Position numbers and translations under genes: made by a program. A stretch of 32,856 nt of DNA from Candidatus Nomurabacteria bacterium GW2011_GWB1_43_19 (GTDB lineage Bacteria; Patescibacteriota; Minisyncoccia; Phycocordibacterales; UBA9973). The stretch lies in the NCBI GenBank assembly GCA_000999465.1, contig LCGB01000006.1, positions 1-32,856 on the forward strand. The letters are read 5' to 3'. A model generated the notes under the pieces. The model was not told where the DNA came from, ran no database searches, and saw only the letters and a program-made list of their open reading frames with translations. This document shows, in pieces, positions 5,111 through 32,704 of the stretch (positions are counted from its first letter, which is position 1; each line of letters starts with the position of its first letter).

Positions 5111-5229
5111 TTAGGTATTTTATCAACTATCTACCCCTCACAAGTTCTCTGAAGTGATTATTTACAGATGGTCTATTGCGGCAATTTCGGCAAGGACTCG
5201 CGAACTTCTGAACAAGAACATACAATAGT

Positions 5230-5251
5230 CACGGCCGTTGTTATTATGGTA
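5230..5251 (+). promoter_or_regulatory. 22-nt flanking motif, upstream copy (PaaX-like gene 1)
   Basis: CACGGCCGTTGTTATTATGGTA; reverse complement of 5847-5868 matches 21/22. Confidence 0.7.
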
Positions 5252-5261
5252 ATATATTAAT

Positions 5262-5822
5262 ATGCGTTTAATTGACCAAGAATCAAATTCCGGAAAAATA
5301 ATCCGTGCCCTTGGTATGGGAATAGGTATATCTGTGGCTTTAGGGAACAGGAGAACGAGTTATAAAATGACAAAAACATTGATCAAGAGAATTTTTGGTT
5401 CAAACAAGCAACCCAAAAATTATTCCAGATATTTTTCTAAATTGAGAAAACAAAAGCTTGTATGCATTAAACAAGTTGGCAATGATCATATAATTTCCCT
5501 GACAGAAAAAGGGGGAGATGTTTTGTTGAGGTTTAATTATGAAAACTTGGAAATAACGCAAAAGAAAATTTGGGATAGAAATTTTCGTATGGTTATTTTT
5601 GATATTCCAGAAACAAAAAGAAACGCGAGAGACTCGCTTCGAGCAAAAATTAAAGAGCTGGGTTTGGTAAAATTTAACGATAGCGTTTGGGTATATCCAT
5701 ACCCATGCCAAAAAGAGATTGATTTTATCGCTAACTATTGGGGTATAGGTAAGTATGTGCACTTTGCTTTAGTGAAAAACATAACTAATAGGGACTACTT
5801 GGAAAGATATTTCCATTTATAA
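5262..5822 (+). CDS. PaaX-like regulator with Cas2-like C-terminal fold
   Basis: Winged-helix-like N-terminus plus 'KIWDRNFRMVIFDIPETKRNARDSLRAKIKELGLVKFNDSVWVYPYPCQKEIDFIANYWGI...YLERYFHL'; paralogous to 18069-18674. Confidence 0.75.
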   Translation: MRLIDQESNSGKIIRALGMGIGISVALGNRRTSYKMTKTLIKRIFGSNKQPKNYSRYFSKLRKQKLVCIKQVGNDHIISLTEKGGDVLLRFNYENLEITQKKIWDRNFRMVIFDIPETKRNARDSLRAKIKELGLVKFNDSVWVYPYPCQKEIDFIANYWGIGKYVHFALVKNITNRDYLERYFHL

Positions 5823-5846
5823 ATAAGAAATAAGCATTTTTATAAC

Positions 5847-5868
5847 TACCATAATAACAATGGCCGTG
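5847..5868 (-). promoter_or_regulatory. 22-nt flanking motif, downstream inverted copy (PaaX-like gene 1)
   Basis: TACCATAATAACAATGGCCGTG; reverse complement CACGGCCATTGTTATTATGGTA. Confidence 0.7.
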
Positions 5869-5905
5869 GTTATTAATTACATTTACATTAGTTAACCATT
5901 ATTTA

Positions 5906-17848: not shown

Positions 17849-18037
17849 ACTGATTGAGTACGAAAAATTAACGCTTTTTTAAGGCCTTATAATTAAACAA
17901 GATTGCATCCGACACTCAATCAATGAATCTCAACCACCTTACTCTATTCGCGGTTTTTTGTCAACAGTTTATTGGGGATTAAAATAATATTTATGATTTT
18001 TCGTTGTTCTCTAAACTCACCAACGTATAACTTTTCT

Positions 18038-18060
18038 GCATATGCTGATTTCTTATACAT
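18038..18060 (+). promoter_or_regulatory. 23-nt flanking direct repeat, downstream copy (PaaX-like gene 2)
   Basis: GCATATGCTGATTTCTTATACAT; 20/23 identical to 18690-18712. Confidence 0.65.
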
Positions 18061-18068
18061 AGGGCAAA

Positions 18069-18674
18069 TTAAGTTAAATGGAAATGTTTCTTTAATTTTT
18101 CATCCCTTAAAATACTTTCCGTAGTCAGAACTTCCACGCACTTTTCCACTCCAAAAAAGTCAGCAACAAAAATTATTTCATCTTCGCAAGGATAAGGGTA
18201 AATCCAAGCGGATTTTTGAAATTGAAAAAAATTTAACTTCTTCAAATAATACCTCAAGGCTTCTCTCCCCTTTGTAAATCTCATAGGGATATCAAACATT
18301 ACTAACCTCCATTTTCCATCCCACTTTTTGGGTTTTTTAATTTCTATGAGGTCAATAGAAAAAGACTTCAATTTTGCTTCTCCTTTTTTGGTAATTTTGA
18401 CTATTGTTTTTCCATCCTTGTCACAGACATATTCTATAAGCTTTTGGCGTTTAATATTATTAACGGCACTACGAATTTGCCTTTTAGAATATTTCTTGGA
18501 ACCCCCAAATATTTTAAAGCATTGGACTGCGTTTCCTATAGCTCCAACTCCGACAACTAGTACCGGAATTGAGGCGAGAGCAAGTACACAAAGAGCAACC
18601 GTGGCAATCTTGGCTTTAGTGGTATCTGAATTTAAAAAATCTTGTAATTGTTCTTTATATCCTTGTTTGTACAT
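18069..18674 (-). CDS. PaaX-like regulator with Cas2-like C-terminal fold (second paralog, N-terminal hydrophobic segment)
   Basis: 'KWDGKWRLVMFDIPMRFTKGREALRYYLKKLNFFQFQKSAWIYPYPCEDEIIFVADFFGVEKCVEVL...KKHFHLT'; matches 5262-5822. Confidence 0.75.
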   Translation of the reverse strand: MYKQGYKEQLQDFLNSDTTKAKIATVALCVLALASIPVLVVGVGAIGNAVQCFKIFGGSKKYSKRQIRSAVNNIKRQKLIEYVCDKDGKTIVKITKKGEAKLKSFSIDLIEIKKPKKWDGKWRLVMFDIPMRFTKGREALRYYLKKLNFFQFQKSAWIYPYPCEDEIIFVADFFGVEKCVEVLTTESILRDEKLKKHFHLT

Positions 18675-18689
18675 GTGTATAATATACTA

Positions 18690-18712
18690 GCATATGCGGA
18701 ATTTTTATACAT
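18690..18712 (+). promoter_or_regulatory. 23-nt flanking direct repeat, upstream copy (PaaX-like gene 2)
   Basis: GCATATGCGGAATTTTTATACAT in the promoter region of the minus-strand gene. Confidence 0.65.
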
Positions 18713-24592: not shown

Positions 24593-24604
24593 CATAGATA
24601 CTAT

Positions 24605-24623
24605 ACACAGGCGTTGCCTGTGT
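24605..24623. repeat. REP-like hairpin, left
   Basis: ACACAGGC GTT GCCTGTGT. Confidence 0.8.
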
Positions 24624-24643
24624 GTTTATGTTATACTATCCGA

Positions 24644-25279
24644 ATGGCTTTAAGGAAACAAAATTTTGCCCCTGGAGAATTTTACCATTTATATAACCGG
24701 GGCACTGAAAAAAGATTGATTTTCTTGGATAAAAATGATTATGATTACTTCTTGTTTTTGATGTATATATGTAATACTCAAAAAAGTATTAAATTAAGAG
24801 ATATTGGAAAAAATTTTAATCGAGAAAAAACCATAGTGGACATAGGAGTGTATTGTCTTATGCCAAATCATTTTCATATTTTTGTGCATGAAAAAACAGA
24901 AGGCGGTATCTCAAAATATATGCTCAAATTAATGACCGGATATTCAATGTATTTTAATAAAAAATATGAACGAACAGGAAAATTATATGAGGGAGTGTTT
25001 AAATCAAACCACGCAAGCAGTGATAGATATTTAAAGTATTTATATTCATATATACATCTTAATCCGGCCAAATTGATAGATAAAAATTGGAAAGAACATA
25101 AAAAAAGGAACTTCCATATTTTATTAAAATATGTTTTTGACTATAAGTATTCAAGTTTGAAAGAATATATGAACTCAAATTTTAAAATCGTAAATCCAAC
25201 ACCATTTCCTACTTATTTTAAAAAACCAAATGATCATAAAAAAGAACTTTTTGAATGGCTTAGTTTTGAAGAACAATAA
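24644..25279 (+). mobile_element. REP-associated tyrosine transposase (RAYT, Y1_Tnp/IS200-like)
   Basis: 'FYHLYNRGTEKRLIFLDKNDYDYFL', 'YCLMPNHFHIFVHEKTEGGISKYMLKLMTGYSMYFNKKYERTGKLYEGVFKS', 'YLYSYIHLNP'; HFH metal motif, candidate catalytic Tyr region. Confidence 0.9.
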
Positions 25280-25297
25280 AATACAAAAGAACAAAAT

Positions 25298-25316
25298 ACA
25301 CAGGCAACGCCTGTGT
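25298..25316. repeat. REP-like hairpin, right (reverse complement of left)
   Basis: ACACAGGC AAC GCCTGTGT, with A/T-extended 12-bp arms. Confidence 0.8.
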
Positions 25317-25336
25317 ATTTTCTGTCTTTAAAATAC

Positions 25337-32226: not shown

Positions 32227-32250
32227 CACTTCAGTATACTGAAGTATAAT
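32222..32250 (+). promoter_or_regulatory. Promoter with embedded 18-bp perfect palindrome (candidate TrpR-like operator)
   Basis: TTGCTC-N17-TATAAT (32245-32250); ACTTCAGTATACTGAAGT at 32228-32245 fills the spacer; ATG 32258 seven nt after the -10. Confidence 0.8.
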
Positions 32251-32257
32251 GTTGTAT

Positions 32258-32677
32258 ATGCCACACGTGTCACCCCGGCGCTTGAATAAGAAAACATTTC
32301 AAATGCTGATGCGCCAATTTTACAATGCCCTTGAAGAAGCCGACGCGCGAACCAAGGTGGCCTTAATGTTCAAAGAAATCTTTACAAAAACAGAAAAAGT
32401 AATGCTTGCAAAACGAATTACCCTTATTTATCTTTTGTCTAAAGAAATGCCCTTTGAAAAAATCGGAGAAATACTCCATTTGAGTTCCGCTACTATCAGC
32501 AGATATTCAGTCGGTAAAGAGCGGGAAAAATACCGAGAAACCTTGAGAATATTGAGGCGGCGGGGAAAATTTTTAGATATTTTGGAAAAGATCCTCCAGG
32601 CCGGACTGCCGCCGCGTGGCCGCGGCCGCTGGAAAAAAATTTACCGGCTAACCGAAAAAAATATTGACGGAAAATAG
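32258..32677 (+). CDS. TrpR-like (YerC/YecD-type) DNA-binding protein
   Basis: 'MLAKRITLIYLLSKEMPFEKIGEILHLSSATISRYSVGKEREKY' HTH; start revised from 32249 to 32258 on promoter grounds. Confidence 0.85.
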   Translation: MPHVSPRRLNKKTFQMLMRQFYNALEEADARTKVALMFKEIFTKTEKVMLAKRITLIYLLSKEMPFEKIGEILHLSSATISRYSVGKEREKYRETLRILRRRGKFLDILEKILQAGLPPRGRGRWKKIYRLTEKNIDGK

Positions 32678-32684
32678 TATTTTT

Positions 32685-32704
32685 TACTTCAGTATACTGA
32701 AGTA
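32685..32704. promoter_or_regulatory. Second copy of the TrpR-like palindrome, downstream of the gene
   Basis: TACTTCAGTATACTGAAGTA, 20-bp perfect palindrome. Confidence 0.8.

Follow-up and report, generated by a model that had tools for sequence, protein, structure and literature searches.

A PaaX/Cas2-fold gene bracketed by its own pair of palindromes, a candidate dispersible unit in Candidatus Nomurabacteria

Introduction

RAYT genes are always located between two inverted REPs (PMC2817692). The locus described here, from the 623-kb genome of Candidatus Nomurabacteria bacterium GW2011_GWB1_43_19, resembles the RAYT-REP systems (REP-associated tyrosine transposases) in that a single gene lies between two palindromic repeats. 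In both, gene and repeat diversify together, and palindromes of the same type are dispersed at mostly intergenic positions, this dispersal being seen here for several paralog types and not for that of the query. However, the protein has a PaaX/Cas2 fold instead of that of an HUH Y1 transposase (IS200/IS605-like Y1), each palindrome type has 0-4 solo copies compared with tens or hundreds in RAYT-REP, the palindromic core is uninterrupted and has no GTAG head, and the upstream copy is fused to a promoter. An identity of the gene as a RAYT was ruled out by this fold, as the protein has neither a Y1_Tnp match nor a conserved HxH/HUH motif.

The PaaX repressors, such as those of E. coli (PaaX, 8a39), M. 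tuberculosis (Rv0674, 3kfw), and Jannaschia (3l09), share with the query a winged helix, a Cas2-like domain, and, at the promoter of the gene itself, an upstream palindrome. In contrast to the solved relatives of 234-305 aa, the query protein has 201 aa, and no catabolic operon is linked to it. Further differences are the palindrome on each side of the gene, the rapid change of the sites, and a number of paralogs that reaches 13 in a single small genome. With Cas2 and CRISPR the locus shares a Cas2-like ferredoxin domain and partly palindromic repeats of ~35 nt, but the repeats bracket the gene itself and there is no spacer array. No Cas1 was found in the query genome, G000, by a search that was positive in 9 of 14 control genomes, so the locus is not CRISPR; an acquisition module was also ruled out by the presence of only two palindrome copies with the gene between them. 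The PaaX/Cas2-fold unit is neither RAYT nor CRISPR.

Rickettsia palindromic elements are small mobile palindromes that occur in frame within coding genes. In-frame palindromes in coding genes, for example in miaA, were likewise found here, but they are much shorter (~34-40 nt), a genome holds several types that are each paired with a bracketed gene, and at the two shared miaA sites the palindrome is a substitution without a length change. Literature searches, with subscription journals outside their coverage, returned no paper linking PaaX with Cas2-like proteins and, for the Patescibacteria, no description of this layout.

Architecture of the query locus

The window, that is the whole stretch of 32,856 nt that was analyzed, contains the query gene between trmD and rpoB (Table 1). 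The initial annotation had described two 23-nt repeats on either side of this gene, and these were located exactly, with GCATATGCTGATTTCTTATACAT at 18038-18060, GCATATGCGGAATTTTTATACAT at 18690-18712, and an identity of 20/23. No further match with up to three mismatches was found in the window, nor was any found in 100 shuffles. Each repeat turned out to be the right portion of a 34-nt imperfect palindrome of the form GTATAA-N7-GCATATGC-N7-TTATAC, and a whole-genome pattern search at up to three mismatches identified only the two sites of Table 1 in the 623 kb. With two copies in the genome, a REP-like abundance of the query palindrome was ruled out. The motif was also confirmed to be unlike that of paralog 1, whose palindromes have a different core.

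In contrast, the direct orientation of the repeats could not be maintained as a defining feature. The flanks of the query scored 26/36 in direct and 27/36 in inverted pairing, a repeat finder returned a 35-nt inverted pair, and both direct and inverted flank pairings were present among related loci. Because each copy is itself nearly palindromic, the pair cannot be assigned a direct orientation.

Table 1. Positions of the query unit, neighboring elements, and related features
Feature	Position	Strand	Evidence
PaaX-like gene, 201 aa	18069..18674	-	PaaX_M E=2.6e-19; AlphaFold2 model; Foldseek
Upstream palindrome GTATAA-N7-GCATATGC-N7-TTATAC over promoter; centre 19 nt before ATG	18677..18710	-	Whole-genome pattern search
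Downstream palindrome, arms and core as in upstream copy; 10 nt past stop codon	18025..18058	-	Pattern search, repeat finder
Predicted extended -10, TGC-TAGTAT, inside upstream palindrome	18684..18692	-	Profile, upstream copies of 26 loci
TATATT, ends 6 nt before ATG	18681..18686	-	Sequence
Modelled winged-helix DNA-binding domain (approximate)	18393..18608	-	AlphaFold2 model secondary structure
Modelled Cas2-like domain (approximate)	18105..18329	-	Model, Foldseek, 37-sequence alignment
rpoB leader TAATCCCCAA...TTGACA, next after the palindrome-gene unit	17959..17981	-	rpoB-upstream comparison, 28 congeners
Paralog 1, PaaX-like, 186 aa; own palindromes ~5217-5252 and ~5846-5881, core ACGGCCGT	5262..5822	+	Profile match, repeat finder
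Zinc-ribbon Cys-rich family	L176:14303-17383; L175/L176 (G000:C3:39062-40834); L181:10863-11246		

Fold and conservation of the protein

The query protein matched the PaaX_M profile with 69.5 bits (cut-off 24), while its 20.8 bits were below the cut-off of 264.55 for the phenylacetate repressor equivalog TIGR02277. An AlphaFold2 model (pLDDT 81, pTM 0.65) placed a winged helix at residues ~23-94, composed of helices 23-34, 45-54, and 64-76 and strands 80-84 and 90-94, with residues ~37-45 modelled poorly, followed by a Cas2-like ferredoxin domain of beta-alpha-beta-beta-alpha-beta order at residues ~116-190. In Foldseek, the best PDB match of the model was E. coli PaaX (8a39, E=1.3e-4), and the next matches were PaaX-like proteins and several Cas2 structures. 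Cas2 profiles matched the query weakly and no solved structure was found by direct sequence match, the relation being visible by fold alone. As the profile match, the model, and the Foldseek matches to both E. coli PaaX and Cas2 agree, the earlier assignment to the PaaX/Cas2 fold is supported, and the query is predicted to be a DNA-binding protein of the PaaX type, which probably forms a dimer.

In comparison to six orthologs, the query gene had a dN of 0.11-0.16 and a dS that was either 1.4-2.0 or saturated, and the protein is therefore under purifying selection. Additionally, Asp128, positioned where the first strand of the Cas2-like domain ends, was invariant across an alignment of 37 sequences. 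Both observations would fit a protein that is itself the mover, namely a strand-exchange factor or Cas2-like nuclease that would act on palindrome DNA by cutting or pairing it and would spread both the unit and solo palindromes, which would make it a new kind of palindrome-mobilizing enzyme. However, PaaX proteins, plain regulators among them, share this conserved Asp with Cas2, and catalysis is putative. A search of the protein for known recombinase motifs found none.

Distribution of the family and matching of the flanks

Of 41 genomes searched, 31 contained PaaX_M genes; the 25 congeners had 1-13 copies each, and the query genome had 11. Most of these 11 are visibly bracketed by matched palindromes of ~33-40 nt with a gene-specific sequence, the unbracketed or partly bracketed ones being L005 and L011. 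Flank matching was analyzed for 109 genes from the 31 genomes by comparing each upstream flank with the gene's own downstream flank, where shuffled pairings served as the null at the 99% level. A match above this level was observed for 67 genes, and all of them were among the 84 genes of the expanded clades. The pair of gene-specific motifs initially seen around the query thus recurs around many members of the family.

The maximum-likelihood tree separated the remaining 25 genes, all single-copy, as a clade of their own, in which no gene (0/25) had a flank match above the 99% null, compared with 67/84 of the others. In the examples inspected from this clade, the palindrome, where visible, was over the promoter only. 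The single-copy clade serves as an internal negative control, and it suggests that the family started from an ordinary repressor that regulates itself.

A scan of 84,980 species genomes identified 26 loci related to the query, almost all of them in Candidatus Nomurabacteria. The core GCATATGC was found in both flanks of these loci, and the outer arms vary yet pair. A chance similarity of AT-rich flanks could be argued from the query gene alone, which only reaches the 99% null with a direct/inverted score of 18-19, but its probability is negligible given the contrast of 67/84 to 0/25, the shuffles without matches, and the shared core with matching arms at both flanks of the related loci. This ortholog set rules chance out.

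Promoter fusion and predicted autoregulation

The palindrome centre is 19-20 nt upstream of the ATG in most of the related loci. For the profile of promoter and core, the distant member L330, in which the upstream core is slightly altered, was excluded. In the 26 upstream copies, the core is continued by TA[GTA]AAT, which yields an extended -10 element, TGC-TA[GTA]AAT, whose T, A, A, A, and T outside the variable position were conserved in 26, 26, 25, 26, and 26 of the 26 copies, respectively. The element was kept much less in the downstream copies of the same loci. In the query, the predicted element reads TGC-TAGTAT, with the -10 at 18689-18684; it is fused to the core and overlaps TATATT.

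The initial annotation had predicted a leaderless transcript from the TATATT before the minus-strand ATG. The position of this hexamer was confirmed in the sequence, but the conserved element is the extended -10 and not TATATT. As the extended -10 is ~20 nt before the ATG in the upstream palindrome, the start of transcription is expected within a few nucleotides of the ATG, and the prediction from the sequence of a leaderless or near-leaderless mRNA stands. A protein bound to the upstream palindrome would cover the -10, which makes autorepression of the query gene through this site probable.

The fusion to a promoter also bears on two alternative readings of the palindromes. In the first, they are intrinsic terminators or mRNA-stability hairpins that occur on both sides by coincidence. 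The downstream copy does follow directly after the stop codon, but the upstream copy overlaps a promoter, the arms match between the two copies of one gene and differ between genes, and the outer arms and the core pair while the N7 stretches remain unpaired, a pattern that differs from a terminator stem followed by a run of T; this reading is very improbable. In the second, the gene encodes a transcription factor that simply regulates itself through two operators, its dimer or tetramer binding both flanks and looping the gene to tighten repression, so that the palindromes are operators only and the variation in copy number is due to ordinary duplication and loss. The PaaX fold, the promoter-fused upstream copy, and the single upstream palindrome of the single-copy clade, as expected of a normal repressor, all favor this second reading, which is weighed below against the distribution of units and palindromes.

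In several relatives (L305-L316), the downstream palindrome carries TGCTAGAAT on the opposite strand, a possible antisense promoter into the gene.

Concerted change of protein and palindromes

In the query clade, the outer arms agreed at 16.2/22 positions between a gene's own flanks and at 11.3/22 between members (permutation p=5e-5), and the direction was the same in every clade tested (p 5e-5 to 0.05). The core hardly differed between members of the query clade. Protein distance was correlated with arm distance (Mantel r=0.35, p=2e-4, shared ancestry uncorrected), and the type of motif followed the protein clade. The two flanks of one gene hence change together, and the covariation of motif and protein across orthologs that had been anticipated from the query and paralog 1 was observed. 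As clade, core, and paired arms change in step, each paralog is expected to be orthogonal. The family provides nearly a hundred natural pairs of a protein and its probable site, in which the core is constant, the arms are variable, and both sites change in step, and with these pairs the way in which orthogonal DNA recognition evolves can be tested directly.

Presence and absence of units

The gap between trmD and rpoB contains the unit in G000 and G001, as well as in G011, where it is further from rpoB. The unit was absent in the other congeners of the rpoB-upstream comparison (28 congeners), and in several of these the conserved leader TAATCCCCAA-TTGACA comes immediately after trmD. Other units also had an empty counterpart between adjacent genes, for example L086 in comparison to G000:C2 and L053 in comparison to G000:C4. 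The empty sites are not precise to the base because the species share ~75-84% DNA identity. A single origin of the rpoB-side position was not supported, as its label required 7 changes on a poorly resolved tree, compared with 7.7 in shuffles, and the pattern may reflect either repeated insertion or repeated loss. An origin from phages was rejected, as no relative was found on viral contigs and no PHROG was matched.

Transposition typically leaves a duplication at the ends, and none was generally seen around the units; the sole case was L316, in which 65 bp of the trmD 3' end recur (78%) from 118 to 54 nt before and from 53 to 115 nt after the gene. In L322, a copy resembling the rpoB promoter is apparently located on the upstream side of the unit.

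Dispersal of solo palindromes

Dispersal was surveyed in stretches totalling 415 kb of the 623-kb query genome. The density of generic palindromes was discarded as a measure for not being discriminating, as terminators and other families dominate it and genomes without PaaX score too, and type-specific matching was used in its place. Palindromes of the paralog types were found away from PaaX genes at 16 sites with a match of at least 26/36 in the 415 kb of own DNA, and at no site by the same threshold in 709 kb of other genomes. The palindrome types of G001, G011, and G002 had no solo copies in small samples of 40-80 kb from their own genomes, while the sample for G000 was large. The query's own type had no solo copies in its genome, and dispersal of the query unit was seen solely as presence or absence of the whole unit.

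Ten of the 17 solo palindromes inspected were at most ~26 nt from a stop codon, and two were inside ORFs, namely miaA and a comEC-like gene. In the miaA of 27 congeners (L210-L236), different palindrome types occupied the same two positions depending on the species, in frame and without a change in length, and in one further species a palindrome was present as an 8-aa insertion. Dispersal of this kind would explain one source of small in-frame palindromes in the genes of streamlined genomes.

These distributions argue against palindromes that are operators only: the solo copies are 3' of stop codons and within ORFs instead of at promoters, the same miaA sites hold different types in different species, and genes that are otherwise neighbors are separated by a whole unit in some genomes and not in others. 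The two-operator reading is accordingly regarded as possible but unlikely. For a protein that actively moves its palindromes, the RAYT-like layout and the specificity of the solos to their own genome are additional points in favor. However, the query type is without solos, and palindromes could be moved by recombination of the host or by another enzyme, for example the Y1 transposase of the window; an active mover is considered improbable.

Two further families were noted during the survey. A zinc-ribbon Cys-rich family with no Pfam domain over the cut-off (NCxNCKxxFTIEPDDFGFYEKIKVPPPTFCPxCR) is represented in the genome by about ten copies or remnants, and in several of them a PaaX-type palindrome is located directly 3' of the stop codon. 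A separate family of near-perfect palindromes, GTCAGACATATGGGAATTCCCATATGTCTGAC, is dispersed in the genome (in G000, for example, at C7:13535, C11:2828, and C2:16744).

Proposed model

The query locus is probably best explained as an autoregulated, dispersible cassette in which 18025-18710 would form a single unit of palindrome, PaaX-like gene, and palindrome. The palindrome GTATAA-N7-GCATATGC-N7-TTATAC would be the cognate site of the protein, and binding at the upstream copy, over the gene's own extended -10 promoter, would shut off its synthesis, while the downstream copy would be a second cognate site that closes the unit. Such units have increased in number and diverged across Nomurabacteria and related families, they are gained and lost between conserved neighbor genes, and gene-less palindromes of several types are dispersed. 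By analogy to RAYT-REP, the most economical account would be a dispersible cassette of one gene whose ends are marked by the palindrome pair. Genes that lie between palindromes of their own form a short list, which would thereby gain a non-HUH protein.

A broader proposal, that the Patescibacteria harbor a class of mobile units in which a non-HUH protein of the PaaX/Cas2 fold recognizes and spreads its own palindrome, and that Cas2-like domains take part in palindrome mobility outside CRISPR, is speculative and rather doubtful. It nevertheless raises the question of Cas2-like domains acting on palindromic DNA outside CRISPR.

Other bracketed genes in the window

Two identical copies of a perfect palindrome, ACTTCAGTATACTGAAGT, lie on either side of a TrpR-like gene (32249-32677; Trp_repressor, E=4.1e-9) within window positions 32228-32703, and only these two sites were found at up to four mismatches in 415 kb of the genome. 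As this gene encodes an unrelated DNA-binding protein with the same bracket, the layout needs no Cas2 fold, a point in favor of the two-operator reading. Additionally, a Y1 transposase at 24603-25318, with a weak match to REP_Tyr_transpos, has 25-nt inverted repeats containing ACACAGGCGTTGCCTGTGT on either side, and one extra copy of this repeat is located at G000:C4:48554, so that a RAYT-like unit is found beside the PaaX units.
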